From Cellulomonas aerilata (GTDB taxonomy: Bacteria; Actinomycetota; Actinomycetes; Actinomycetales; Cellulomonadaceae): DNA of 64,000 bases. Location: contig NZ_BJYY01000017.1 of NCBI RefSeq assembly GCF_007991755.1, positions 1-64,000 on the forward strand. Direction: 5' to 3'. This document shows, piece by piece, positions 23,294-56,638 of the stretch. The stretch's first letter is position 1; each line of letters opens with the position of its first letter. Made by a program: the position numbers and the translations under genes. The notes under the pieces were generated by a model. The model saw nothing but the letters and a program-made list of their open reading frames with translations. It made no database searches and had not been told where the DNA came from.

Positions 23294-23500
23294 TCAGTCC
23301 TCCGGGCGCTGCCTCGGCACCCCGGCGAGCAGGTCGCGGACCTCGGACTCGAGGTACCGGCGGTGACCGCCCAGCGTCCGCACCGCCGAGAGCTTGCCCG
23401 CCTTGGCCCATCGCGTCACGGTCTTCGGATCGACGCGGAACAAGGACGCGACCTCGGACGGTGTCAGCAGGGAATCCGGCCCGGTGTGCTGAACGGACAT
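23294..23500 (-). CDS. bldC: BldC-type MerR-like DNA-binding regulator
   Basis: A 68-residue protein consisting almost only of a MerR-like winged helix (LLTPSEVASLFRVDPKTVTRWAKAGKLSAVRTLGGHRRY in pieces), lacking an effector domain. This matches BldC of Streptomyces, which binds direct repeats as head-to-tail oligomers to control development. ATG at 23500 follows GGAGG by 7 bases; the longer frame upstream has no conservation signal. Its location near purM/DUF3073 matches my recollection of the Streptomyces gene order, supporting orthology. Confidence 0.9.
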   Translation of the reverse strand: MSVQHTGPDSLLTPSEVASLFRVDPKTVTRWAKAGKLSAVRTLGGHRRYLESEVRDLLAGVPRQRPED

Positions 23501-23984
23501 CGCGCGCCTCCGCAGGGCCTCGGCCTGCCACCGGAGGGGTCCAGGTGGTGCCCTCAGGCGAGGTACACCAGGTCTACCCCACGTCCCGGGAGACGACATG
23601 TCGGTGCGGCTTGCCGGTGCGCGCCGATCAGGCCGTCCGCGGGGCCGTCCAGAGCCCGGAAATGGCCGCTACCGGGCAAAACGCTCCATCTCGCCCCATC
23701 TCGGACACCCGGGCGGCGTCCGCATGTTCGCTGAGGGCAGAATCGAGGGCTGAACCGGCTCTGCGCCGGATCCGTTAAGGCCGCGCACCTGACGGCTCGG
23801 CGGAGCCCGCGCGAGTCGCTGCCCGGCGCACCGCCCGAGGGTCGTCCACGGCACACCCCGCGAGTGGTCGGAATAGCGAATGACCATGTACCGTTGGGGG
23901 CCTAAGAGACGATTTTCAGCACCCCGGGGCCGCGCGTGTTCTGCACGTTGCCGCCCCGCATCCACGTAAGAGGGGGTCGATGCC
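23501..23984. other. 484-bp divergent spacer between bldC and the DUF3073 gene
   Basis: I see no convincing gene. It is locally less GC-rich (for example 23680-23760 and 23870-23925) and must hold both divergent promoters. A TAGACC/TACCTC stretch on the minus strand near 23560-23580 is a candidate bldC promoter. GAATAGCGAATGACC and the TACCGT at about 23890 are candidates for the plus strand. No strong hairpin or repeat stands out. Confidence 0.5.
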
Positions 23985-28012: not shown

Positions 28013-30187
28013 CTAGGTCGTCGTCGCCCCGTCGGCCGCTCCGCCGGCCGCCTCGCGCGCGGCCGGGAACGGGGTCTCGGGCGCGGGACGACCGTAGTAG
28101 TAGCCCTGCGCCTGGTCGCACCCCAGCCCGACGAGGTACTCGTGCTGGGCGCGGGTCTCCACGCCCTCGGCGATGACGTTCTTGCCCAGGGCGTGCGCCA
28201 GCGAGGTCACGCTCCCCAGGATGTCCGGACCGAACCCGCCGCTGTCCGACAGCAGGTCGGCGATGAAGCTGCGGTCGAGCTTGACGGTGTCGACGGGCAG
28301 CCGCTGGAGCCAGGTGAGCGACGAGTAGCCCGTTCCGAAGTCGTCCAGCGCGATCCGGACGCCCCGGTCCCGGACGCCGGCCAGGATGCGGCCGGCCATC
28401 TCCAGGTCCTGCAGGAGCACGGTCTCGGTGAGCTCGAGCTCGACGCGCGCCGGGTCGATGCCGCTCGTCCTCAGCGCCCGGTCGAGGTGCTCCAGCATGC
28501 TCGGGTGGGTCAGGTGCCGCCCGGACACGTTGATGTCCACCGCCGGCGCGGGCAGCTCCGTCCCGGGGGTCCCGGACCAGGTCCACGCCGCGGCGGCGCG
28601 CATCGCCGCCTCCAGCACCCACCGGCCGAGGTCCACGACGAGCGCGCCCTCCTCGGCGAGCGGCAGGAACGCTCCCGGCATGAGCAGGCCCTGGGTGGGG
28701 TGCTGCCAGCGCACCAGCGCCTCGGCCGCGACCGGCGTACCGCTGCGCAGGTCGACCTTCGGCTGGTAGTGCAGCACGAGCTGTCCGTCGTCGACGGCCG
28801 TGCTGAGCGCCGCCTGCCGGACGACCCGGTCCCGGCTGCGGCCGTGCGCGCGCCGGTCGAAGAGCTGGCTGCGGTCCCGCCCGGCCCGCTTCGCCTCGTA
28901 CAGGGCGGTGTCCGCCTCGCTGAGCAGGGAGCTGGGGGTCGCGTCGCCGGTCGAGCAGCTCGCCCCGAGCGTGACGGTCACCGGCAGGTCGTGACCGCCG
29001 ACCCGGTACATGCCGCGCAGCGCGCCCTGCAGCCGCCGGGTCAGCGCGCTCAGCTCGTGCGGCGAGCGCAGGTCCTCGGCGATCACGACGAACTCGTCGC
29101 CGCCGAGCCGGCCCACCGTGTCCGCCGGCCGGACGACCGCACGCAGCCGCTCGGCGACCTGCACGAGCAGCTGGTCACCGGCGGGGTGACCGAGCGCGTC
29201 GTTGACGCCCTTGAAGTAGTCCACGTCGCACAGGAGGAGCCCGACGCGCCCCGGCGTCCGCTCGGTCCGACCGAGCGCACGCTCGAGCTCAGCGTCGATG
29301 AGGCGGCGGTTGGGCAGCCCGGTCAGCGGGTCCTGCAGGGCCTGCCGGCGGAGCTGGTCGGCGAGCTCGTGCTGCGCGGTCACGTCCCAGATGTTCAGGA
29401 CGATGCCGCCCACGTCCGGCTCGTCCACGTGGTTCTCCCCGCGGACGTGGATCCACAGCCAGCGCCCGTCGGTGTGCTCCAGGCGCAGCTCGAGCTCCGC
29501 GCGGGCACCCAGTCCCCGGTCGGCGATCTCGGCGAAGGCGCGGTCCACGGCGGGACGGTCGTCCGGGTGGACGCGCGAGGAGATCCCGTCCTGCGACGCG
29601 GTGCGCCCGAGCACCCGCTCGATGGAGGGGCTCTGGTAGAGCACGGTGCGCCCGTCCGGCGCGAAGACGACGATCACCTCCCCGGCGTTGGCGAGGAGCG
29701 CCTGCAGGCGGGCGTCGCTGCGAGCCGTGGCCAGGGCATGGGTCTGCTCCGCGGTCGCGTCCTGCCAGTGCACGACGACGAGCTCGCGCCACGCGCGCAC
29801 GTCGACGGTCGTCCAGCCCGGCTCCGCCGGGCCGTCGTCCCGGTCCCCGTCGCCGACCGAGTCGGGGCGGCGGTCCCGCACCACGTCCCGGGTCGTGGCG
29901 TGCTGCGGCTCGCCGGACTCCACGACGGCCCGGAACATCGGCAGCAGGGTGTCGCGCACCTCGGGGACCAGCTCGAACATGCGCCGGCCCCCGAGCGGAC
30001 CCAGGCCCAGGGCCCGTTCCGCGGCGGCGTTGGCGAACACGTACTCCACGTCCACCAGCGTCCCGGCGTCCAGCACGGGCCGGCAGACGACCCAGTAGTC
30101 GGCACCGGCGAGCTGGGCGTCCGCGACGGCCAGGCGTGCCTCGACGTCGGATGTCAGACCGCCATGGGCCACGCGCGCCTCCGCCAC
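28013..30187 (-). CDS. PAS-GGDEF-EAL c-di-GMP turnover protein
   Basis: A 724-residue cytoplasmic signalling protein without membrane segments, with two PAS-like sensor regions (about 15-150 and 158-275). The diguanylate cyclase domain (about 280-440) has an intact GGDEF at 362-366. The phosphodiesterase domain (about 455-705) has EAL at 489-491 and the metal-site segments ALDDFGTGYSSL and VIAEGVET. Both catalytic signatures look active, so the net direction cannot be told. The start is the GTG at 30187. It is the only c-di-GMP enzyme in the window and is relevant to the c-di-GMP riboswitch at 49557. Confidence 0.93.
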   Translation of the reverse strand: MAEARVAHGGLTSDVEARLAVADAQLAGADYWVVCRPVLDAGTLVDVEYVFANAAAERALGLGPLGGRRMFELVPEVRDTLLPMFRAVVESGEPQHATTRDVVRDRRPDSVGDGDRDDGPAEPGWTTVDVRAWRELVVVHWQDATAEQTHALATARSDARLQALLANAGEVIVVFAPDGRTVLYQSPSIERVLGRTASQDGISSRVHPDDRPAVDRAFAEIADRGLGARAELELRLEHTDGRWLWIHVRGENHVDEPDVGGIVLNIWDVTAQHELADQLRRQALQDPLTGLPNRRLIDAELERALGRTERTPGRVGLLLCDVDYFKGVNDALGHPAGDQLLVQVAERLRAVVRPADTVGRLGGDEFVVIAEDLRSPHELSALTRRLQGALRGMYRVGGHDLPVTVTLGASCSTGDATPSSLLSEADTALYEAKRAGRDRSQLFDRRAHGRSRDRVVRQAALSTAVDDGQLVLHYQPKVDLRSGTPVAAEALVRWQHPTQGLLMPGAFLPLAEEGALVVDLGRWVLEAAMRAAAAWTWSGTPGTELPAPAVDINVSGRHLTHPSMLEHLDRALRTSGIDPARVELELTETVLLQDLEMAGRILAGVRDRGVRIALDDFGTGYSSLTWLQRLPVDTVKLDRSFIADLLSDSGGFGPDILGSVTSLAHALGKNVIAEGVETRAQHEYLVGLGCDQAQGYYYGRPAPETPFPAAREAAGGAADGATTT

Positions 30188-33942: not shown

Positions 33943-35817
33943 TCAGCCTGCGGTCGTGTAGCCGACGACGTCGATCATCACGCGGACGGCCTCGTCCGCC
34001 GCGAGGTCGGCGACGTAGCCCAGCCGACCGTCGTCGGAGAGCGGCACCAGCACGGTGCTCACGGTGTCCCCGACCGGGACGCTGACCGAACCCGGAGCCG
34101 TGGCGTCGGCGCCGAACAGCCGGACGGCGCCCGCTGCCGACGCCCCCGTGACGGACACCTCGACCAGCACCGCGGTCGCCCCGGCGGGGACGCCGTCACG
34201 ACCTGCGACGAGCGTCGTCACCGGGGACCCGGCGCTGACGCCGCTGCGGTCCTCGAGACGCGACGCCGTGAGCTCCCCCAGCTCCGGGACCCAGAGGGCG
34301 AACCCGAGCGCGTCGACCGGCACGTAGGCGCTGCCGCCCCCGAGCGCGTAGCAGACGGCGAGCCCGACGTACGGGTCCGGCTCCTCGGCGAGGGGCGGTG
34401 TCGGCACGGGCGCGGGGGCCGGCGCCGGGGTCGGCGAGGGCGCCGGGACGGGCGTCGGTGCCGGGGTCGGGGCGGGGGTGGGTGTCGGGACCGGCGTCGG
34501 TGTCGGGGTCGGGACGGGGGTGGGTGTCGGGACCGGCGTGGGCGTCGGTGTCGGGACCGGGGTGGGCGTGGGCGTCGGTGTGGGAACCGGCGTGGGCGTC
34601 GGTGTCGGGACCGGCGTGGGCGTGGGAACCGGCGTCGGGACCGGGGTGGGCGTGGGCGTCGGCACCGGCGTGGGCGTCGGAGTCGGCGCGGGGACCGGCG
34701 TGGGCGTCGGGACAGGGACCGGCGTCGGGACCGGCGTCGGCGCTGGCGACGTCTCCGGGCCGACCGGCTCGGTCGGGAGGTCCGTGACGTATCCCGGCGA
34801 CCGGTAGGAGGTCCCCGCCGTGCCGACCGGGACGTACTCGCCGGTGGGCGGCGTGCCGACCTTCACGAACGGCCACACCTCCGAGCCGGGGAGCTTGCCC
34901 TTGGGCCAGAGGAACCCGTCCCGCCACGACGGGTTCTTGGGGGCGGCCCACACGTCCTGGACCTTCATCGGCCACGTCGAGCTGTCCCGCCAGATCATGT
35001 AGGCGCTGTCCGGCGTCCCGTGGAGGTCCACCCGGCGGAAGTCGAACACCTCCGGCTTGGCGCCGTTGAAGTGCTGGTTGGGGAGCAGCATGAAGCCCTG
35101 GTACGTCGTGTGACCCGTCAGTCCGTCCACCAGCAGCTGGCGGGGACCGGCCCACGTCTGGATCACGTCGGCGTGCCAGCCGGACTGCGTCCCCTGCACG
35201 GTGTCCACCCGCATGTTCGCGAGCTGGACCACGGCGCCGAACCGCTGGTCGAGCTGGATGCCCTCCTGCAGACCCGGACCGGTGATCCGCATGCCCTCGA
35301 CGTGCACGGTGCCGGTCTGGCCCTGCAGGTACAGGCCGCGACCCGCGTCGTACGGCGCGGTGAAGCCCTCGATCGGGATCTGGATCTCACCACCGATGAG
35401 CACGACGTTGCGCCCGCCGGTCAGGATGAGCCCACGGATGCCCTTCAGCGGCTCGGCCGGCATCTTGACGATGTAGTCCTTGGCCGGGTCCATCTTCAGC
35501 GCCCGCTTGGACTGGGTGACCGTGATCGTCTCCGGGTTGGTCAGCGCGGGTGGCGCCCAGGACAACGGCGTCGTCGCCGGGTCGGAGGTCGACGTGACGA
35601 CGGCAGCGGTGTCGGCGGCGGCAGCGGCAGCGGGCTCCGGCGCGGTGACCGCTCCGGCGGCGGGCATCGTCACGCGTGCGAACGCGGTCAGGGAGACCAG
35701 GAGGATGGCGGCACCGGTCGCGACCATCCTGCGCGACGACGTCGTGACGGACCGCGACCACGACGCCGCGGCTGGCGGGCGACCGCGGCCGACGCGGGTG
35801 TTCGTGCTGCAGGTCAT
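33943..35817 (-). CDS. Exported beta-helix-like protein, paralog 1, with Pro-Thr linker
   Basis: A 624-residue protein, first of five paralogs in this window. ATG at 35817 follows GGAGGAG. Residues about 28-55 form a signal peptide or anchor. The core (about 83-340) runs from [16 protein letters not shown] to YRSPGY and includes [43 protein letters not shown] and [12 protein letters not shown]. These short beta-strand-rich rungs look like a right-handed parallel beta-helix. An approximately 120-residue Pro-Thr/Val tract (about 356-474) follows, then a C-terminal domain (about 475-624) resembling actinobacterial domains with [18 protein letters not shown]. It is closest to paralog 3, sharing [14 protein letters not shown] do not recognise a named family and assign no enzyme activity. 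Confidence 0.75.
34395..34746. repeat. Low-complexity repeat encoding a Pro-Thr-Pro-Val linker
   Basis: About 350 bp of short, imperfect 6-, 12- and 18-bp repeats (GTGGGCGTCGGTGTCGGGAC type) encode the P-T-P-V-P-T linker of paralog 1. Strong strand asymmetry (G/T on the plus strand) makes it prone to slippage. Confidence 0.9.
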
Positions 35818-36136
35818 CGTGGATCTCCTCCGGGGGCGGCGACCGGCGTGACGCCCGGTCCCACGGCTGATCGACGCTCCGGCGTGCCGGTGTAGGCCCG
35901 GGCGCTGCAGGTCAGCGCGCATCACCTGAACGGGTCAGCCCACCGGTCGGCACCGCGGGGCACGCCCGTCGTGCCTGCGAGCGCGGGGTGTGGATCGGGT
36001 GAATGTCCGGGTGGGTGACCTCGCTCGACGGGGTCGACGGGCACCGCCGTCCGGCAGGATGAGCAGGTCGTCCGCGCACGCCCGCACGTGGGCCCGCCGG
36101 CGACGTCGTCCGACGCACGCACCCCCGAGGACCACC
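35818..36136. other. 319-bp divergent spacer between paralog 1 and the DUF2599 lipoprotein gene
   Basis: No gene is seen. It holds a CGGGTGAA box at 35996-36003 on the plus strand. The minus-strand leader of paralog 1 contains TACACC (about 35893) as a possible -10. No riboswitch like that at 49557 is recognisable here. Confidence 0.5.
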
Positions 36137-37015
36137 GTGACCCGCACCCGTGCCGACGCGCCGCACCGCATCCGGACGCCGGGCCCCACGACGCGCGCCC
36201 GTGTCGGGCGGGCGGCACGGGCGACCTCCGGCCTGCCCGTGACCCTCGCCCTCGCCGTCGCCCTCACCGGCTGCGGCGCGCTCGAGGGCGTGGTGTCGCC
36301 GCCCGCGCCCCCCGCACCGCCGGCCGCCTCGCCGGCCGCTCCCGAGCCGGCGCCGGCAGCGCCCACGGTCCCCACCGCCGACGCGGTCCGCTCGTCCGGC
36401 ACCCCGGTCGACGTCGAGGGCGCGACGGTGCTGCACGTGCTGGCGGCCGGGTCCGCACCGGCGGTCCGCGTCGAGGCGGACGGGTCCGAGGCCGTGCTGA
36501 TTCTCGACGCGGGGGACGCCGCAGGCGTCGTCGACGTCGTGCTCGCCGGCCCGGCGGGCGCCACGCTCGAGCCGCAGGACGACGGGTCGGTCGTGGTGCT
36601 GGCAGCGGACGGCGCGTTCCTCGGGGGCGCCGGCCGCCCGCTGCTCGGTCCCGGGGCCGCACCGGCGCGGGTCACGGCCGAGGAGGGCGGCGCGGTGCAC
36701 CTGCAGGGGACCGGGACGATCACGGTCCGCGTCGCCGCGCACGCCGTGCTGGACACCGACTGGGGGGAGCGGGAGGGCGGCCGCTCGCTGGCCGTCGAGC
36801 CGTCGCCGTGGGCGCGGACCGCCGGGATGGCCGGTGAGGTCGGCGTGTGGGCCGAGCTCGTCCGGGCGGTCCCCGAGGCGGACTCCCCCACCATGCGGGA
36901 CCAGCTGAGCTGTCACGTGATCGGCGCCCCGGACAAGGACACGTGGAACCTGGAGCCGTGGCGGCCGGACGTCGGCCTGATCATGACCCTCGCGGCGTCG
37001 TGCAACGCGACCTGA
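36137..37015 (+). CDS. Putative lipoprotein with DUF2599-like C-terminus
   Basis: A 292-residue protein. The GTG at 36137 follows GAGGA and gives a long basic lead, then a hydrophobic segment ending in the lipobox LTGCG (Cys about residue 47), so it is probably lipid-anchored. An Ala/Pro-rich spacer follows. The C-terminal about 90 residues (DQLSCHVIGAPDKDTWNLEP, then WRPDVGL and a final Cys) look like DUF2599, a secreted actinobacterial domain of unknown role. It borders the surface-polymer region and is divergent from paralog 1. Confidence 0.7.
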   Translation: MTRTRADAPHRIRTPGPTTRARVGRAARATSGLPVTLALAVALTGCGALEGVVSPPAPPAPPAASPAAPEPAPAAPTVPTADAVRSSGTPVDVEGATVLHVLAAGSAPAVRVEADGSEAVLILDAGDAAGVVDVVLAGPAGATLEPQDDGSVVVLAADGAFLGGAGRPLLGPGAAPARVTAEEGGAVHLQGTGTITVRVAAHAVLDTDWGEREGGRSLAVEPSPWARTAGMAGEVGVWAELVRAVPEADSPTMRDQLSCHVIGAPDKDTWNLEPWRPDVGLIMTLAASCNAT

Positions 37016-47792: not shown

Positions 47793-47900
47793 GTGCTCTC
47801 TGAGGTGCGTCGCCGTGTGCTCGGCGGTCTGCCGTGGTGCCGGCTGCGCGAGCAGGTCCGGGCCGTGCCGGTCGCCTCCCCGACGCAGGTGACGGCGTGA
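47793..47900 (+). pseudogene. 35-codon remnant/leader ORF resembling the polyol-phosphate transferase N-terminus
   Basis: GTG-initiated, with AAGGGA upstream. It begins VLSEVRRRVLGGLPWCRLRE, clearly like VLSDLRRRLLGRLRWYWLRE of the gene at 41630, then ends after 35 residues. Its TGA overlaps the wzx GTG (GTGA), so it is probably translated and coupled to wzx. It is either a decayed gene start or a co-opted leader peptide. Confidence 0.65.
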
Positions 47901-49489
47901 CGAACCGCCCGTCGCCCGCCGGGGGGTCTGCCGCGTCACCCGAGCCCGACCAGGCCCCGCTCGTCCCGCCGGAGCCCGACCCGTCCAACACGGACGGGCG
48001 CACGCAGACCGACGGGCACCGGGACGGGGACGGGGACGGACTGCGCGAGCGTGCCGTGTCGGGCGTGCTGTGGACCGCCGTCGAGAAGTGGTCCGTGCGG
48101 CTGAGCACCCTGGTCGGCTTCATCGTCCTGGGGAATCTGCTCTCTCCCCTCGCGTTCGGGATCGTGGCGCTCGCCATGACCTTCATCAGCTTCCTCGAGA
48201 CCGTGGCCGACGGCGGCTTCGCCGGCTATCTCGTCCAGAAGAAGAAGCTGACGGACGCGTCGGTGCACACCGCCTTCATCGTCAGCTCCTCCATGGCGCT
48301 GCTCCTCTCCGTCGGCCTGGTGGCCCTCGCGCCGCCGGCGAGCGAGCTGCTCGACGTGCCCGAGCTGCGCCGTGTGCTCCCGGCCCTCGCGGTGTACCTC
48401 TTCATCGCCGGGATGTCCGTCGTGCCCGCGGCGCTCATGTCCCGCGAGATGCGGTTCAAGCAGCTCGCGATGCGTCAGATGACCGCGACGGCGATCTCCA
48501 TCGCGGTCGCCATCGGGCTGGCCGTCGGCGGGGCGGGCGTGTGGGCCCTGGTCGGGCAGTCGCTCACCCGCGCGGTCGTGTCCTTCATCGCGCTGTGGGT
48601 CACCAGCGACTTCCGTCCCCGCTGGTACTTCGACCGTGCCGAGGCGCGCGTGATGACGGCGTACGGCAGCAAGGCGCTGGCGGTGAACCTGCAGACCCAG
48701 GTGCGCACGCAGGGTGAGCTCTTCATCATCGGGGCGCTCGCCGGCCCCACGACCCTCGGGTTCTGGACGGTGGCCGGCCGCCTCGTCGGGGTCGTCGTCG
48801 ACGTGTTCTCGTCCGTGGTCGGCGCGGTGGCGCACCCGCTGTTCGCGCGCCTGCAGGACGCGCCCGAGCGGCTGGCCCGCGCCGTCGGGACCACCCGCGC
48901 GCTGACCGCCCTGGTGCTCGTGCCCGCGCTGGTCCTGACGTCGCTGGTCAGCAAGGACGTCGTGCCCGCGGTCTTCGGTGACCAGTGGACCCCGACCACG
49001 ACGGTGGCGTCGATCCTGGCCCTGTCGGCCCTGCTGCAAACCGTCGGGAACTTCGACCGGTCGGCGTTGCTGGCCACGGGCCACCCGGGCGCCGAGCTGT
49101 GGGTGACCACGGTGTTCCTGGTCATCCAGCTGACGCTAGCGGTGATGTTCCACGACGACCTGGTGAAGCTGGCCATCGGTGTCGGCATCTCGATGGCTCT
49201 GGCCGTCCCGGTCCGGCTCCTGCTCGTGCGCCGGTTGCTCCACGTGCCGGCGCGCGGCTTCGCGCCCACCGCCGCGGTGTTCCTGGCCGGCGGCCTGGCC
49301 GCTGCCGCCGTCGTGGCGGCCGAGGCGCTGCTCGGCCTGGAGGGCGTGGCCTACGTGGCCCTCGCCGTCGTCGTCGGGCTGGTCGTCTACGCGGGCGTCG
49401 TCATGCTGGTGGCCCGCCCGGTCGCCATGGAGCTGGTCGGGATCGCCCGCGGGGTCCTGCAGCGCAGGTCACGCACCAAGGCGGCCTGA
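47897..49489 (+). CDS. Wzx-type polysaccharide flippase (Polysacc_synt/MATE-like)
   Basis: A 530-residue membrane protein with about 12-14 helices. An acidic, Pro-rich cytoplasmic N-terminus of about 55 residues precedes the first helix. Conserved segments include SGVLWTAVEKWSVRLSTLVGF, LADGGFAGYLVQKKK-like LVQKKKLTD and FDRSALLATGHPGAEL. It would move lipid-linked repeat units across the membrane for Wzy polymerisation (56686-58173). The start is the GTG at 47897, overlapping the small leader ORF. About 170 bp after it comes the riboswitch-controlled paralog 2. Confidence 0.88.
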   Translation: MTNRPSPAGGSAASPEPDQAPLVPPEPDPSNTDGRTQTDGHRDGDGDGLRERAVSGVLWTAVEKWSVRLSTLVGFIVLGNLLSPLAFGIVALAMTFISFLETVADGGFAGYLVQKKKLTDASVHTAFIVSSSMALLLSVGLVALAPPASELLDVPELRRVLPALAVYLFIAGMSVVPAALMSREMRFKQLAMRQMTATAISIAVAIGLAVGGAGVWALVGQSLTRAVVSFIALWVTSDFRPRWYFDRAEARVMTAYGSKALAVNLQTQVRTQGELFIIGALAGPTTLGFWTVAGRLVGVVVDVFSSVVGAVAHPLFARLQDAPERLARAVGTTRALTALVLVPALVLTSLVSKDVVPAVFGDQWTPTTTVASILALSALLQTVGNFDRSALLATGHPGAELWVTTVFLVIQLTLAVMFHDDLVKLAIGVGISMALAVPVRLLLVRRLLHVPARGFAPTAAVFLAGGLAAAAVVAAEALLGLEGVAYVALAVVVGLVVYAGVVMLVARPVAMELVGIARGVLQRRSRTKAA

Positions 49490-49556
49490 TCCTCGAGCGG
49501 TTGTGGCACAGGTCACACCGGATTTCACCTCCACGTCCACCCGTTCGGCCGATCAC

Positions 49557-49649
49557 TTCTGTGTCCACGAAAGGGCAGACCCGTCGCGAGGCGGGGACGC
49601 AAAGCCATGGGACCCACGCGGTTCGCCAGGCCACCGAAACGACACGGAG
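49557..49649 (+). ncRNA. Cyclic di-GMP-I (GEMM) riboswitch controlling paralog 2
   Basis: The GEMM hallmarks are present in order: AAGGGCAGACC (49571-49581), a six-pair stem CCCGTC/GGCGGG closed by a GCGA tetraloop at 49586-49589, then GGACGCAAAGCC (49595-49606), a second helical arm, and GGCCACCGAAAC (49629-49640). GGC at 49574-49576 pairs with GCC at 49604-49606. The closing helix P1 pairs 49557-49565 (TTCTGTGTC) with 49641-49649 (GACACGGAG). The 3' strand therefore holds the GGAG ribosome-binding site for the ATG at 49656. Ligand-stabilised P1 should hide it, giving a translational OFF switch. The mechanism is inferred. Confidence 0.88.
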
Positions 49650-49655
49650 AAGACG

Positions 49656-50915
49656 ATGCACCGAACGCTGTCCCCGCACGCCCGCGCCTCGCGCGCGCTG
49701 TCCACGGCGCGGCGCCTGACGGCGGGCCTCGCGGCCGCCACCGTCGCCGGCGCCCTCCTCACCGGTGTGACCGCGACCGCCGCGCAGGCCCAGACGATCC
49801 CGTCCGGCCCGCCCCACGGCAACTTCGACGGGGCCACGGCCGTGTCCGGCGGGCTGAAGGTCCGCGGCTGGGCCGCCGATGCCGACACGACGAGCGCGCT
49901 CACGGTGAAGATCACCGTCGGGGGCGCCACGACCCAGATCCAGACCGGCGTCGCCCGGCCCGACGTCCCGAAGGTGTTCCCGCAGTTCGGACCTGCCACG
50001 GGCTGGGAGACGGTGCTGCCCCTGCCGACCGGCAGCCACACGGTCTGCGTCACGGTGGTCAACGTCGGGCCCGGCCAGGACAAGACCTTCCCGTGCCGCA
50101 CCGCCGTGGTGACCTCGGGCACCCCGACCGCCGACACCGCCACCACCACGGCGAGGACGCTGACGTGGGCGCCGCCCGCGCTGACGAGCCCGACCACCAT
50201 CACCATCTCGGCCACCAACCGCCAGCCGCGCCTGGAGGCCGGCAAGGACTACATCATCAAGATGCCCAGCACCCCGCTCGAGGGCCTCAAGGGGCTCATC
50301 CTCAGCGGCGGCCGCAACGTCGTGCTGATCGGCGGCGAGGTCAAGATCTCCCAGGTGGGCACCACCTCCGAGTCCCTGCGAGGCCTGCTGCTCAAGGACC
50401 AGACCGGCACCGTGCACATCGAGGGGCTGCGGATCACCGGCGGCACCCTCGCCGAGGGCATCAACATCGACCAGCGCCTGGGCGCCACCGTCCAGCTGCA
50501 GAACATCCGGGTGGACACCGTCCACGGGACCCAGGCGGGGCTCCACGCGGACGTCATCCAGTCGTGGGCGGGCCCCAAGGTCCTGCGCATCGACGGACTG
50601 ACCGGCTACACCAACTACCAGGGGCTGTTCCTGCTCCCGACGCAGTTCGGCACGGCGGCGCCGCAGCTGTTCGACCTGCGCAACGTCAACATCGTCGGCA
50701 CGACCGGCAGCGCGTACCTCTTCTGGCGTGACAACGGCACCTGGCCCGCGACGACCCAGAACGTCTGGGCCTCCACCTCGCAGGTCGGGGTCGGCCGCGG
50801 CCAGTACCTGATGGGCAACTGGTCCGGCGTCCTCTCGGGCAAGCCGGCCACCGGGGACATGGTCCCCGTCGGCAGGGCCGGGCTGGGCTACGCGTCGCCG
50901 GGCTACACCCGCTGA
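49656..50915 (+). CDS. Exported beta-helix-like protein, paralog 2, riboswitch controlled
   Basis: A 419-residue secreted protein. ATG at 49656 lies 6 bases past GGAG. The signal peptide (residues 1-45) ends near AQAQ. Residues about 47-150 are an accessory module (GGLKVRGWAADADTTSALTV, then LPTGSHTVCVTVVNVGPG) found elsewhere in actinobacterial secreted proteins and also in paralog 3. The core, about 165-419, has [68 protein letters not shown] and a final GYASPGYTR. No enzymatic motif is recognised. A role as an extracellular matrix or surface-polymer-binding protein, perhaps a lyase-like fold, is inference. Confidence 0.8.
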   Translation: MHRTLSPHARASRALSTARRLTAGLAAATVAGALLTGVTATAAQAQTIPSGPPHGNFDGATAVSGGLKVRGWAADADTTSALTVKITVGGATTQIQTGVARPDVPKVFPQFGPATGWETVLPLPTGSHTVCVTVVNVGPGQDKTFPCRTAVVTSGTPTADTATTTARTLTWAPPALTSPTTITISATNRQPRLEAGKDYIIKMPSTPLEGLKGLILSGGRNVVLIGGEVKISQVGTTSESLRGLLLKDQTGTVHIEGLRITGGTLAEGINIDQRLGATVQLQNIRVDTVHGTQAGLHADVIQSWAGPKVLRIDGLTGYTNYQGLFLLPTQFGTAAPQLFDLRNVNIVGTTGSAYLFWRDNGTWPATTQNVWASTSQVGVGRGQYLMGNWSGVLSGKPATGDMVPVGRAGLGYASPGYTR

Positions 50916-51267: not shown

Positions 51268-53220
51268 ATGCTCCGCACGCTCACGTCCCACCGCAGCGGC
51301 ACCCCTCGGCGACCCGCGACCCGCCCGCTGCGCCGTGCCGCCGCCGCTCTGGTGGCCGCCGTCACGCTCGTGGGCGTGCCGGCCGGGGGTGCGACCGCCA
51401 CGGACGCCGCCCCGTCCACCCCTGCGACGTCGTCGGTCCCGAGCACACGCTCGCCGCTGACCTGGCAGCCGCCGGCACTGACCGCACCCACCACGGTGAA
51501 GGTCTCGGCCACGAACCGGCACCTGAAGCTCGACGACACCAAGGACTACGTCGTCTCGATGCCCGCGACACCGCTGACCGGGCTGGACGGCCTGATCGTC
51601 AGCGGCGGGCGCAACGTCGTGCTGATCGGCGGCCGGATCGAGCTCCCCGCCGAGGCCATCACCGGCACGGTGCACGCGGGACGCGGCCTGCTCCTCAAGG
51701 GCCAGACCGGGACGGTGCACGTGGAGGGGCTGCACATCACGGGCCCCGGCCTGGAGGAGGGCATCAACATCGACGCCGCCCAGGCCACCGTGCAGCTGCA
51801 GAACATCCGGGTCGACCTCGTGCACGGCTACGAGGCCGGGCACCACGCCGACGTCATCCAGACCTGGGCAGGCCCGCGGATCCTGCGGGTGGACGGCCTC
51901 ACGGGCCACACCCAGTACCAGGGCCTGTTCTTCCTGCCGACGCAGTACGGCGCGGCGCAGCCCGAGCTCTACGACCTGCGCCGCACCGACATCCACGGGA
52001 CCCCGGACAGCGCGTACATGATCTGGCGCGACGGCAAGGCCTGGCCGCTCACCGTCTCCGAGGTGTACGTCGCCCCGAGGAACCCGTCCTGGCGCGACGG
52101 GTTCCTGTGGCCCAAGGGCACGGCGCAGGGCACCGCCAGCTGGCCGCTGGTCAAGGTCGGCGCGCCCCCGGTCGGCGAGTTCGTCCCGCTCGCCGACGTG
52201 GGCCTGGGCTACACCTCCCCCGGCTACGCCACCACGACGCCCCCGGCCACCGACCCCGCGCGGGACGTGCTCGCCGAGGTCGTCGCGGTCAACCCGCCCG
52301 TGGGCGCACTGGAGGCCGTGACGCCGGTCCCCGGCGGTCTGCGGGTCACGGGCTGGGCCACGGACCGCGACACCACCGGCCCGGTGTCCGTCGACCTCTC
52401 CGTCGGCGGCACGACCCGCCGTGTCGTGGCCGACCGAGCGCGCACCACGGGGTCCGAGCCCGGCGCCGCCCCGCTCACCGGCTTCGACACCGTCGTGCCC
52501 CTGCCGGCCGGCACGCACCAGGTCTGCGCCGTCGCGGTCGACATCGGCTCGGGCGAGGACACCGCGCTCGGCTGCGCAGCCGCCACGGTCGCCGACACCA
52601 CGGCGCCGACGTTCACCGCCGCGCCGGTCCTGCGCCTGCGGACCGGGGACGTCAGCGCCGCCGGCGCAGTCCCGGTGACCGTGCGATGGGCCGTCGGTGA
52701 CGACGTGGGCGTCAGCGGCACCACCGTGCTCCAGCCCGTCACGGGGGCGTACGCGCCGGACGTCACCACCGCCGACCACGTCGCCTTCCCCGGGGCCTCG
52801 ACCTGGACCGTGGGGGCGCACGACGCCGCCGGCAACGTCGGGACGTCGTCCGCCGACGCCACGGTCACCCTCGTCCCGGAGGGCGACACCACCCGGTACG
52901 AGTACTGGTGGCGGACGGGGACCACGCAGTACCTCGGCGGCACGGCGCTGCGCAGCAACCGGGGCGGCGCCTCGATGAGCCACAGCTTCACCGGCAGCAG
53001 CGTCGCGTGGATCGCGTCGCTGGAGGCGTCCGGCGGGCGCGCCGACGTCTACGTCGACGGGGTCAAGGAGGCGACCGTGGACCTCGCGTCGCCCACCACC
53101 GTCAACCGGTCGGCCGTCTTCACGCGCAGCTGGGACACCTCCGGCACCCACACCGTGAAGGTCGTGGTGGTGGGCTGGACGGGCAACGTCACGAGCGACG
53201 GGTTCGTCACGCTCCGCTGA
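51268..53220 (+). CDS. Exported beta-helix-like protein, paralog 3, multidomain
   Basis: A 650-residue secreted protein. ATG at 51268 follows GAGGAC; the signal peptide ends around residue 48. The core (about 68-325) contains [55 protein letters not shown] and [11 protein letters not shown]. The accessory module (about 341-444; GGLRVTGWATDRDTTGPVSV) is the same type as in paralog 2 but sits after the core. An Ig-like segment (about 450-540) follows, then a C-terminal module (about 546-650; SHSFTGSSVAWIA, ADVYVDGVKEATVDL) resembling actinobacterial carbohydrate-binding-like tails. It lacks the DQR residue pattern of the others (INIDAAQA). Confidence 0.78.
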   Translation: MLRTLTSHRSGTPRRPATRPLRRAAAALVAAVTLVGVPAGGATATDAAPSTPATSSVPSTRSPLTWQPPALTAPTTVKVSATNRHLKLDDTKDYVVSMPATPLTGLDGLIVSGGRNVVLIGGRIELPAEAITGTVHAGRGLLLKGQTGTVHVEGLHITGPGLEEGINIDAAQATVQLQNIRVDLVHGYEAGHHADVIQTWAGPRILRVDGLTGHTQYQGLFFLPTQYGAAQPELYDLRRTDIHGTPDSAYMIWRDGKAWPLTVSEVYVAPRNPSWRDGFLWPKGTAQGTASWPLVKVGAPPVGEFVPLADVGLGYTSPGYATTTPPATDPARDVLAEVVAVNPPVGALEAVTPVPGGLRVTGWATDRDTTGPVSVDLSVGGTTRRVVADRARTTGSEPGAAPLTGFDTVVPLPAGTHQVCAVAVDIGSGEDTALGCAAATVADTTAPTFTAAPVLRLRTGDVSAAGAVPVTVRWAVGDDVGVSGTTVLQPVTGAYAPDVTTADHVAFPGASTWTVGAHDAAGNVGTSSADATVTLVPEGDTTRYEYWWRTGTTQYLGGTALRSNRGGASMSHSFTGSSVAWIASLEASGGRADVYVDGVKEATVDLASPTTVNRSAVFTRSWDTSGTHTVKVVVVGWTGNVTSDGFVTLR

Positions 53221-53296: not shown

Positions 53297-53340
53297 ACGT
53301 GCGAAATCTCTCAACGTACAACGTGATTGCGGTTTGCGTC

Positions 53341-53443
53341 TTGCCTGAGACCGAATCGTGCCCGTACCGTGACCGCGCCCATCGGGGGCACCTTGTCGGG
53401 GGGCAAGTGCTGCCCTCCCCTGTGGACCGTGCGCTGCACGGTC
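53341..53443 (+). promoter_or_regulatory. Candidate promoter and leader hairpin of paralog 4
   Basis: TTGCCT (53341-53346) and TACCGT (53365-53370), 18 bp apart, form a plausible promoter in an unusually AT-rich patch (53300-53360). A hairpin GACCGTGC-GCT-GCACGGTC (53425-53443) lies about 10 bp before GGAG of the start. Confidence 0.5.
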
Positions 53444-53464
53444 CTCCGACGACACGGAGTCCTC

Positions 53465-54430
53465 GTGCCCCGACGCCTCACGAACGTGCCCGCCGCTCGA
53501 CCCCATCGGCCCAGCCTGCGCTCCCGGGTGACCGGCGGCCTCACCGCCGCCGCAGTCCTGGGGACGATGCTCGTCGCCGCCGCCCTGCCGGCCCACGCGG
53601 TGACCCCGTCTGCCGCCGGGACCCTCGACGCAGCCCTGGCCACGACCACGACGTCGCCCAAGCTGACGTGGCGGCCGCCCGCGCTGACCAGCCCCACCAC
53701 GGTGACCGTCTCCTCGACGAAGCACAACCTGTCCCTCGCCGCCGGCAGGGACTACATCATCAAGATGCCGACGACGCCGCTCGACGTCCGTGGGGGCCTG
53801 ACCATCGCCGGCGGTCGCAACGTCGTCCTGATCGGCGGCGAGATCCGCAGCACCCGGACCAGCTCCGTCGCCAACGACAAGCGCGGCCTGTACCTCGTCA
53901 ACCAGACGGGCACGCTGCACGTCGAGGGCCTGAAGATCACCGGCAGCACCCTGGCGGAGGGCATCAACCTCGACCAGCGCGCCGGGGGCACGGTCCAGCT
54001 GCAGAACATCCGCGTCGACACCGTGTACGGCAGCCTGAACGGGCACCACGCCGACGTCCTGCAGACGTGGGGCGGACCGGCGACCCTGCGGGTGGACCGG
54101 CTGACCGGCTACACGACCTACCAGGGCTTCATGTTCCAGCCCACGCAGTTCGGCTCGCCGAGCCCCAAGCTGTTCGACCTGCGCAACATCAACATCGTGG
54201 GTCGGACCGGCAGCGGCTACCTGATGTGGCGGGACGGCAAGACGTGGCCGATGAAGATCACGAACGTCTGGGGGAAGCCGTCCATCACCGGGCTCCCGCG
54301 GGGGCAGTGGCTGCGCCCGGACAACACCACCTACGGCTTCGGCTACGTCAAGGTCGGGACCCCGTCCACCGGCGACTTCGTGCCGGCGACCCGCGCCGGC
54401 ACGGCGTACGTCTCGCCCGGCTACCTCTGA
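53465..54430 (+). CDS. Exported beta-helix-like protein, paralog 4, minimal form
   Basis: A 321-residue secreted protein, the shortest of the signal-peptide forms, consisting of the core only. The GTG at 53465 follows GGAG by 6 bases; a longer in-frame upstream extension has no signal-peptide logic. The signal peptide ends at about AHA (residue 46). The core (about 68-321) shows [75 protein letters not shown] and a terminal AYVSPGYL. Terminators on both sides make it a separate transcription unit. Confidence 0.78.
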   Translation: MPRRLTNVPAARPHRPSLRSRVTGGLTAAAVLGTMLVAAALPAHAVTPSAAGTLDAALATTTTSPKLTWRPPALTSPTTVTVSSTKHNLSLAAGRDYIIKMPTTPLDVRGGLTIAGGRNVVLIGGEIRSTRTSSVANDKRGLYLVNQTGTLHVEGLKITGSTLAEGINLDQRAGGTVQLQNIRVDTVYGSLNGHHADVLQTWGGPATLRVDRLTGYTTYQGFMFQPTQFGSPSPKLFDLRNINIVGRTGSGYLMWRDGKTWPMKITNVWGKPSITGLPRGQWLRPDNTTYGFGYVKVGTPSTGDFVPATRAGTAYVSPGYL

Positions 54431-55578: not shown

Positions 55579-56568
55579 CTACTCACCGTCGCCGTCGAGG
55601 TAGCCCGGCGACTCGTACCCGAGCCCCGCGCGGCCGTCCGGCACGAAGTCGCCGCCGGGCGGCACGCCGACCCGGACCTCGGCCCAGCTGCCCTCCGCGT
55701 CGTCCGTCGCCCACGTCAGCGCCTCCGGGTCACGCTCGTCCGCGAAGTCGCCGTCCGTCGGGGGCGCCACCCACACGTCCCGGACGTCGACGTCCCACGC
55801 GCCGCCGTCGCGCCAGAGCATGTAGCGCGCGCCCCCCTCGCCGACGATGTTCACGTGCCGCAGGTCGACCGTGTCGGGGTCCTCCTCGAGGAACTGCCGG
55901 GGCAGGAGGAAGAGCCCCTGGTAGTTCGTGCGACCGGTGAGACGGTCGACCCGGAGCACCGCCGGCCCGGCCCACGACTGGATGACGTCCGCGTGGTGGC
56001 TCTCCTCGGCGCCGTGGACGGTGTCGATGCGGATGTTCTGCAGCTGGACCGTCCCGCCCACGCGCTGGTCCAGGTCGATGCCCTCGGCGAGCTCCGGACC
56101 GGTGATGTACAGGCCCTCGACGTGGGCGGTGCCGGTCTGGTCCTTGAGCAGCAGGCCACGGACCTCGGTGGTGTCCTCGCCCGGCTCGGTGATGCGGATC
56201 TCGCCGCCCCGGAGCACGACGTCGCGGCCGCCGACGATCACCAGGCCACCTCGCACGTCGAGCGGCTCGTCCGGCATCCGGACGATGTAGTCCTGGTCGG
56301 GCTCGAGCTGGAGGTCGCGGTTGTCCTCGGTCACGTCCACGGTGACCGGGTCCTCGAGCGTCGGCGGGGCCCAGGTGAGCCGGCCCGGCACCCCCGCCTG
56401 CTCCGCCCCGCCGCGCCACGCGCGCACGCCGAGCAGCAGCGCCGTCGCCAGCACCGCCAGCGCCACGACGGCGGCGACCACGGTGACGACGAGGCGACGG
56501 CCCCTGCGCGGGGCCGTGGGCCAGCCGTCGTCGTGGACGGGTCGGACGGACGTTCCGGTGTCGACCAT
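55579..56568 (-). CDS. Membrane-anchored beta-helix-like protein, paralog 5
   Basis: A 329-residue family member. Instead of a cleavable signal it has a basic cytoplasmic stretch and one N-terminal membrane helix (about 27-50, VVTVVAAVVALAVLATALLLGV), so the core should face outwards while tethered. The core (about 60-325) keeps LTWAPPTLEDPVTVDV, GGRDVVLRGGEI, DQTGTAHVEGLYITGP, QNIRIDTVHGAE and HADVIQSWAGP. It is more acidic than its paralogs. ATG at 56568 follows GAGGAG by 6 bases. It is placed between the Wzy-like and GT2 genes, hinting at a link to polymer assembly. Confidence 0.78.
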   Translation of the reverse strand: MVDTGTSVRPVHDDGWPTAPRRGRRLVVTVVAAVVALAVLATALLLGVRAWRGGAEQAGVPGRLTWAPPTLEDPVTVDVTEDNRDLQLEPDQDYIVRMPDEPLDVRGGLVIVGGRDVVLRGGEIRITEPGEDTTEVRGLLLKDQTGTAHVEGLYITGPELAEGIDLDQRVGGTVQLQNIRIDTVHGAEESHHADVIQSWAGPAVLRVDRLTGRTNYQGLFLLPRQFLEEDPDTVDLRHVNIVGEGGARYMLWRDGGAWDVDVRDVWVAPPTDGDFADERDPEALTWATDDAEGSWAEVRVGVPPGGDFVPDGRAGLGYESPGYLDGDGE

Positions 56569-56638
56569 GGGCCGCTCCTCAGGCTGGTGCACGAAGGGGT
56601 GCGTGGGGTGGAGCCGCGACCGGGCTGCGGTCGGCGCG

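Follow-up and report, generated by a model that had tools for sequence, protein, structure and literature searches.

A c-di-GMP-I riboswitch predicted to close on the ribosome-binding site of a predicted secreted-protein gene in Cellulomonas aerilata, and the genes found behind its aptamer in the wider family

Where a riboswitch aptamer lies so near to a start codon that its closing helix can take in the Shine-Dalgarno sequence, does the aptamer itself switch translation, and does such an arrangement belong to one locus or to many? The question is raised by a leader from Cellulomonas aerilata, located within positions 1 to 64,000 of contig NZ_BJYY01000017.1 (the whole of this 64-kb stretch being referred to here as the window), which a sequence-only reading had described as a c-di-GMP-I (GEMM-I) riboswitch with the Shine-Dalgarno sequence of a beta-helix gene contained in its P1 helix. 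Here, we describe a computational analysis of this leader, of the gene behind it and of related loci, with the features of the window collected in Table 1.

The identity of the aptamer was addressed by the covariance-model scan that the reading had proposed. In a cmscan search of the 64-kb window against all of Rfam, five matches reached the gathering score, namely four tRNAs and RF01051 (c-di-GMP-I), the last scoring 54.3 bits against a gathering score of 35 (E 7.7e-8); when the whole genome of the organism was searched with RF01051, the E-value of the same aptamer was 1.1e-9. The model found no match in any of 14 control genomes, a result that was the same (0/14) in every wider draw. The GEMM-I signatures listed in the reading are all where they had been placed and, as in RF01051, the aptamer covers the whole model above the cut-off, with a P2 that carries a GNRA loop, a P3 and the expected pocket bases. 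It differs from RF01051 in the short end loop of its P3, and in an outer P1 that is fused to the ribosome-binding site with no downstream platform.

Table 1. Features of the riboswitch locus, its target gene and the paralogues of the target in the window
Feature	Position	Strand	Basis or remark
c-di-GMP-I (GEMM-I) riboswitch aptamer	49564-49638	+	RF01051, full model 1-87
Outer P1, 5' strand UUCUGUGUC	49557-49565	+	Nine unbroken pairs with 49641-49649
Inner P1, 5' side	49568-49569	+	Partner 49635-49636; RF03167 structure line
Vc2 G20 equivalent	49574	+	G; anchored by 49575-49600 = G21-C46
P2 stem with GCGA loop	49580-49595	+	49580-49585 paired with 49590-49595; RF01051 alignment and fold
Vc2 A47 equivalent, stacks between the two guanines	49601	+	A
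Vc2 C92 equivalent	49634	+	C
Outer P1, 3' strand GACACGGAG, includes Shine-Dalgarno	49641-49649	+	Sequence and fold
Shine-Dalgarno GGAG, 6 nt before ATG	49646-49649	+	Sequence
Target gene, 419 aa; N-terminus signal-like by eye, then an Ig-like domain and a C-terminal domain rich in strands	49656-50915	+	
Polysaccharide flippase-like protein directly upstream of target leader	47834-49489	+	PF13440, E 4.8e-72
Target paralogue, 57% identical over domain	51268-53220	+	No riboswitch found
Target paralogue, 60% identical; start codon uncertain	53327-54430	+	No riboswitch found
Target paralogue, 58% identical	55579-56592	-	No riboswitch found
Target paralogue, 58% identical	33943-35925	-	No riboswitch at gathering score

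With the numbering of Vc2, which we take to carry over to these positions, including the G21-C46 anchor and the placement of C92, the equivalents of G20, A47 and C92 are all intact in the window aptamer. Among the matches listed for the family, the G20 place is G in 133 of 142 loci and the A47 place is A in 134 of 142, the other eight not being parsed there. The roles of these three residues in the pocket are set out in PMC9049102. A second model, RF03167 (c-di-GMP-I-GGC), also scores at the window, at 57.5 bits, but this lies below its gathering score of 59, and the window keeps A at 49601 where the RF03167 consensus has G; we infer that G at the A47 place is what distinguishes this variant, and rejected it for the window. 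The genome holds four RF01051 copies (65.5, 62.5, 54.3 and 48.1 bits, the window copy being the third), and two of the other three exceed the RF03167 cut-off, at 70.0 and 65.5 bits. Judged from sequence, the window element is a genuine c-di-GMP-I aptamer, a member of RF01051 by each test run, as had been proposed. The stability of the whole 131-nt leader is ordinary when compared with dinucleotide shuffles (z 0.27).

The gene behind the aptamer had been assigned to an undescribed secreted family, and this description holds in that no curated domain matched over cut-off in Pfam or NCBIfam: Pfam gave no family at E 0.01 (PsbQ comes up at E 0.075, short of its cut-off), NCBIfam gave no match up to E 1, and no solved structure was matched by sequence up to E 1, whether the protein alone or a profile served as the query. 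An AlphaFold model from the single sequence was too poor to use (mean pLDDT 46.9) and was replaced by one from an alignment of 25 sequences (mean pLDDT 81.1), in which the N-terminal domain is Ig-like and the C-terminal domain consists of repeated short strands with pLDDT mostly above 90. Foldseek ranks a GH28 polygalacturonase first in the PDB (E 1.6e-3), Ig-like or carbohydrate-binding domains making up many of the other PDB matches listed, and in a viral library a phage tailspike comes third (E 6.2e-4), after two fibronectin-type proteins. The TM-scores of the GH28 and tailspike matches are below 0.2, and none of the 25 family members scanned matches PF13229 (right-handed beta-helix) at E 0.01; the beta-helix named in the reading is a likely fold for the target. 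The 25 sequences reach Lentisphaerae and Planctomycetota and share 14 invariant columns, including R242, H254, E256, H297, D299, Q302, W304, Y321 and Q322, a pattern from which the target would be a putative polysaccharide-active enzyme.

Five copies of the target family occur on the contig, all within the window. None of the four paralogues has a riboswitch at gathering score, nor do the three that were also scanned with a laxer threshold (33943-35925 lying outside that scan), an observation that goes beyond the original reading. The surrounding genes encode glycosyltransferases, sugar epimerases, the flippase and a product that matches Wzz, though below cut-off. The paralogue at 33943-35925 adjoins a gene at 35990-37015 (+) whose product has a C-terminal DUF2599 domain (E 1.1e-27).

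Relatives of the target were found in eight of 150 genomes of the family, three of the eight being weak, and the riboswitch was present at one only (L193, from an uncultured Cellulomonas) of the 18 relative loci checked out of 21. It might be argued that the window element is c-di-GMP-I-like but a relic, or shifted in its ligand, so that the gene is not controlled or another nucleotide is sensed; such a reading would fit a copy that scores lowest but one of the four in its genome, and a family in which just two of 18 strong domain matches carry the riboswitch. Set against this are the intact pocket residues, the lack of the RF03167 G at the A47 place and the conservation at L193, where the flippase-target gene order is the same, the flippase is 67% identical, the target orthologue is 69% identical over its domain and the riboswitch is kept in another species. 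We therefore regard a relic or ligand-shifted element as highly improbable.

At the window locus itself the closing helix has two parts. The outer P1 consists, from 49557-49649 inwards, of the pairs U-G, U-A, C-G, U-G, G-C, U-A, G-C, U-A and C-G, and all four bases of the GGAG (gene start 49656) are inside it, this half of the helix being the weaker because two of its four pairs are G-U. An internal loop separates it from an inner P1 (49568-49636 and 49569-49635) that the first reading did not mention. The structure line of RF01051 leaves P1 unpaired; the inner pairs were taken from that of RF03167. The inner P1 is CG/CG in all 42 aligned leaders, its 3' side being a requirement of the parser and its 5' side not. 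When the 3' strand of the window was set against the 5' flanks of 141 other loci, nine pairs were reached by none and seven pairs by three, and nine or more pairs arise in 0.2% of all swapped flank pairings. Among the matches listed, the real loci with nine pairs number two of 142, the window leader and one BldC locus (L108), so that at the scale of the family a helix of this length is close to what would be expected.

How much of P1 is conserved was judged from an alignment of 42 leaders, 40 of them picked for diversity, together with L017 and L010, and with the window leader among them. Over the outer five and inner two pairs, 73.8% of cells are paired against 69.0% in shuffles (0/500), the covariation score is 0.196 against 0.129 (0/500), and on both measures the true register exceeds slides of 1 to 3. 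Cells changed on both sides number 26 against 12.7 in shuffles (0/500). Two further counts are not clearly above these controls: the four pairs changed on both sides are reached by 285 of 500 shuffles, slides of +1 and +2 giving five, and the 15 further pair types by 29 of 500, slides of +2 and +3 giving 16. Corrected for loop length, outer pairs 1 to 9 are formed in 37, 30, 26, 24, 14, 20, 19, 17 and 13 of the 42 leaders, pairs 5-9 (13-20/42) being at about the level of random bases. On the aligned sequences, covariation in P1 is supported for about four outer pairs only, ending near the Shine-Dalgarno sequence.

The same limit appears when the Shine-Dalgarno sequence is followed across loci with a canonical core. 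The continuous helix touches the core in 46 of 112 loci, misses it in 66 and covers at least three of its bases in 23, and in 50 the core begins three nucleotides downstream of the initial base of the P1 3' strand. Family-wide sequestration was considered and rejected, since a fold-probability test has no consistent sign across classes, the pairing of the Shine-Dalgarno with own as opposed to other flanks being 0.485 against 0.412 for secreted and unclassified genes, 0.541 against 0.463 for microproteins and 0.451 against 0.522 for BldC (for the window it is 0.94 against 0.59). Matched duplex energies are weak evidence (-8.29 against -7.96, with 107 of 2000 permutations as low, and 255, 904 and 478 of 2000 within classes), and a helix-length test is positive but small (3.58 against 3.31, 0/300). 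The orthologue (L017/L193) forms five pairs without a break, the GG of its own GGAG lying among them, and by eye its P1 pairs 4 and 5 are changed on both sides (U-A to C-G and G-C to C-G). By these comparisons, burial of the full GGAG is peculiar to the window locus, the single orthologue found having it in part only; the proposal that P1 holds the Shine-Dalgarno thus survives for this leader, with nine pairs matched by 0/141 swapped flanks, but not as a conserved property, about four pairs being supported family-wide.

What is shared is placement. Of 128 non-redundant loci to which a gene was assigned, 127 have the start codon 17-27 nt past the first base of CCGAA, a distance that is partly built in because candidate starts were sought at 12-45 nt with a preference for 21; the 51 BldC starts among the matches listed, for which the protein is known, fall at 18-27 nt by the same script. 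This makes room for another explanation of an OFF switch, in which the ligand-bound aptamer with a P1 of about four pairs is a rigid block within the 30S footprint and the nine-pair helix merely adds to it. So common a placement, the favoured position of the core three nucleotides into the P1 3' strand and the many loci in which the helix misses the core all speak for blocking by closeness, and in most relatives it appears as likely as burial by pairing, because only some four P1 pairs are supported there. For the window locus we consider it unlikely, though still the strongest of the rivals, as here the Shine-Dalgarno lies wholly in a helix that no swapped flank matches.

Folding calculations bear on the mode of control. 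With the aptamer core enforced, the four GGAG bases are unpaired at 2, 2, 2 and 19%, and the P1 pairs have probabilities of 0.73-1.0. Leaders that end at 49655 or 49665 form the aptamer and P1 unaided (mean P1 probability 0.91 and 0.86), and as P1 is thus predicted without ligand, the range of the switch may be small. Pieces with at least 25 coding bases favour a fold without the aptamer, by 1.6 kcal/mol for 49550-49720, in which RNAfold pairs the 3' strand of P2 with bases near 49670 and the Shine-Dalgarno GG with bases of CCGAA; an inverted repeat is present at 49585-49599 and 49679-49693. On the calculated energies, this aptamer-free fold could conceivably be the ligand-free state. The coding region was rejected as a dedicated anti-aptamer strand, its pairing being no better than in dinucleotide shuffles of the coding start (z 0.18 for the window, 2.4 for the orthologue, class means -0.06 to 0.49), and we treat it as an effect of G+C content.

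An ON switch, with the ribosome site masked by the ligand-free alternative fold and exposed by c-di-GMP, could build on the Shine-Dalgarno pairing in these longer leaders, and it has a precedent in Vc1, the GEMM-I element upstream of gbpA, which according to PMC4744006 raises expression and lies within a 225-nt leader, taking up its first 111 nt. Vc1 resembles the window aptamer in standing before the gene of a secreted surface-binding protein, the window target being predicted to be secreted; Vc1 differs in being an ON element in a long leader, while the window aptamer abuts the start codon. The folds themselves argue the other way, however: the last two bases of the Shine-Dalgarno, unpaired at 0.02 and 0.19 in the aptamer fold, are more open in the alternative (0.94 and 0.59), and shuffled sequence makes as good a partner as the coding region. 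An ON switch is accordingly, in our estimation, quite improbable.

Transcription termination was rejected as the step of control, no terminator-like site being found in 49400-49700; nor was a sigma-70-like promoter found. Since there is no terminator and the start codon follows the aptamer match by 17 nt, translation is the likely step, and OFF is the reading that follows most naturally from a Shine-Dalgarno shut within the aptamer fold. In Vibrio cholerae, Vc2 is described in PMC9262584 as a switch that turns translation OFF by way of P1, and the window riboswitch is probably similar both in the switching element and in the step; in the window leader the 3' strand of P1 is itself the Shine-Dalgarno. 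A translational OFF switch that lacks a separate expression platform is the model that we place ahead of the rivals and hold to be reasonably probable. Under this model, binding of c-di-GMP would lock P1, the locked helix would keep the 30S subunit off the Shine-Dalgarno and the secreted protein would not be made, while at low c-di-GMP P1 would open and translation proceed. The protein is thus probably made only when c-di-GMP is low and, a step further from the data, could be a cell-surface or matrix protein, possibly polysaccharide-active, of the motile or dispersing state. That the organism makes c-di-GMP is likely from the 37 GGDEF domains encoded in its genome, which mark a c-di-GMP-rich actinobacterium. 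One of the 37 belongs to a PAS-GGDEF-EAL protein at 28016-30187 (-), about 19 kb from the riboswitch.

The OFF model acquires a wider setting from the genes that stand behind the same aptamer. RF01051 was found in all five genomes searched of the genus (18 matches in total), in 50 of 150 genomes and seven of 25 genera drawn from the family, in 31 of 297 genomes drawn from the order and in 41 of 296 from the class, these draws overlapping the narrower ones. The family loci are among the matches listed, with the weakest matches under-represented; 148 were taken up and 142 parsed (L015, L016, L084, L093, L112 and L122 were left out). Among these, the following gene is BldC in 51 loci (including L004, L007 and L026), a short open frame with a V-P-x-Q type motif in 30 and another gene in 52, with none assigned in nine. 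The four aptamers of the C. aerilata genome precede a predicted secreted PKD protein (L001), a 66-aa microprotein (L002), the window target (L003) and BldC (L004).

Frames of at least 115 aa account for 24 of the 52 other genes, the window gene included, and by eye mostly have signal-like N-termini. In a Pfam search of 19 of them at E 0.01 (with a separate scan for the window gene), DUF4214 repeats were found in six, three of which also have Beta_helix matches (one over cut-off, two below), and PKD domains in three, one with GH26 over cut-off as well; another frame has GH26 below cut-off, one has Beta_helix only and one has other matches only, both below cut-off, and seven have no match. The trait shared across the family is placement, the aptamer abutting the start codon before the genes of BldC, of microproteins and of predicted secreted proteins. 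Loci beyond the family can depart from this layout, the likely starts at L152 and L156 being 45-60 nt away. At L153 and L154, from the same order, the aptamer is followed by an open frame of 34-36 aa and then, about 120 nt past the aptamer, by the start of a protein that by eye is response regulator-like.

That BldC and microprotein genes stand behind one aptamer family-wide was absent from the sequence-only reading. In the literature searched, which was mostly non-subscription, no paper was found on BldC, c-di-GMP and a riboswitch together, or on c-di-GMP riboswitches in Cellulomonas, and no description of a platform-free c-di-GMP-I layout with the aptamer on the ribosome site; the riboswitch class is known, and the gene set behind the aptamer in the family that contains Cellulomonas is without a description found there. 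We give about even odds to the proposal that the family aptamer is a platform-free module on the ribosome site, governing a small regulon of BldC, microproteins and secreted surface or matrix proteins that are all ON together at low c-di-GMP. Such a regulon would be of more interest than the single riboswitch. The best-known actinobacterial route of control by c-di-GMP runs through the Streptomyces proteins BldD and WhiG/RsiG, and BldC is a developmental regulator; if the proposal is true, the regulon would tie c-di-GMP to development by RNA, and this route to BldC and surface proteins, in the family holding Cellulomonas and Actinotalea, would be a second and independent one. An aptamer laid on the ribosome site would also amount to a minimal OFF switch.

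The microproteins are orphans of 43-66 aa (for example, L002:1285-1485, minus strand). Forty non-identical ones, including L020, L033, L123, L125 and L139, share a W and a C-terminal end of V/I/L-P-x-Q type; those of L123, L125 and L139 resemble transitional forms on the way to BldC. When the profiles of the microproteins and BldC were compared, the match was weak (probability 31%, P 5e-4); the microproteins may be decayed copies of BldC. The microproteins of the genus itself (L002, L005, L006, L012 and L013), which were outside that comparison, end in FVPxQ and have no W. The window also encodes a BldC-like protein at 23297-23599 (-) (HTH_17, E 3.1e-13), a gene without a riboswitch at gathering score. 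Elsewhere in the family, on contig C30 of genome G004, two c-di-GMP-I riboswitches (L010 and L014) lie 3.4 kb apart on opposite strands, each preceding a predicted secreted protein.
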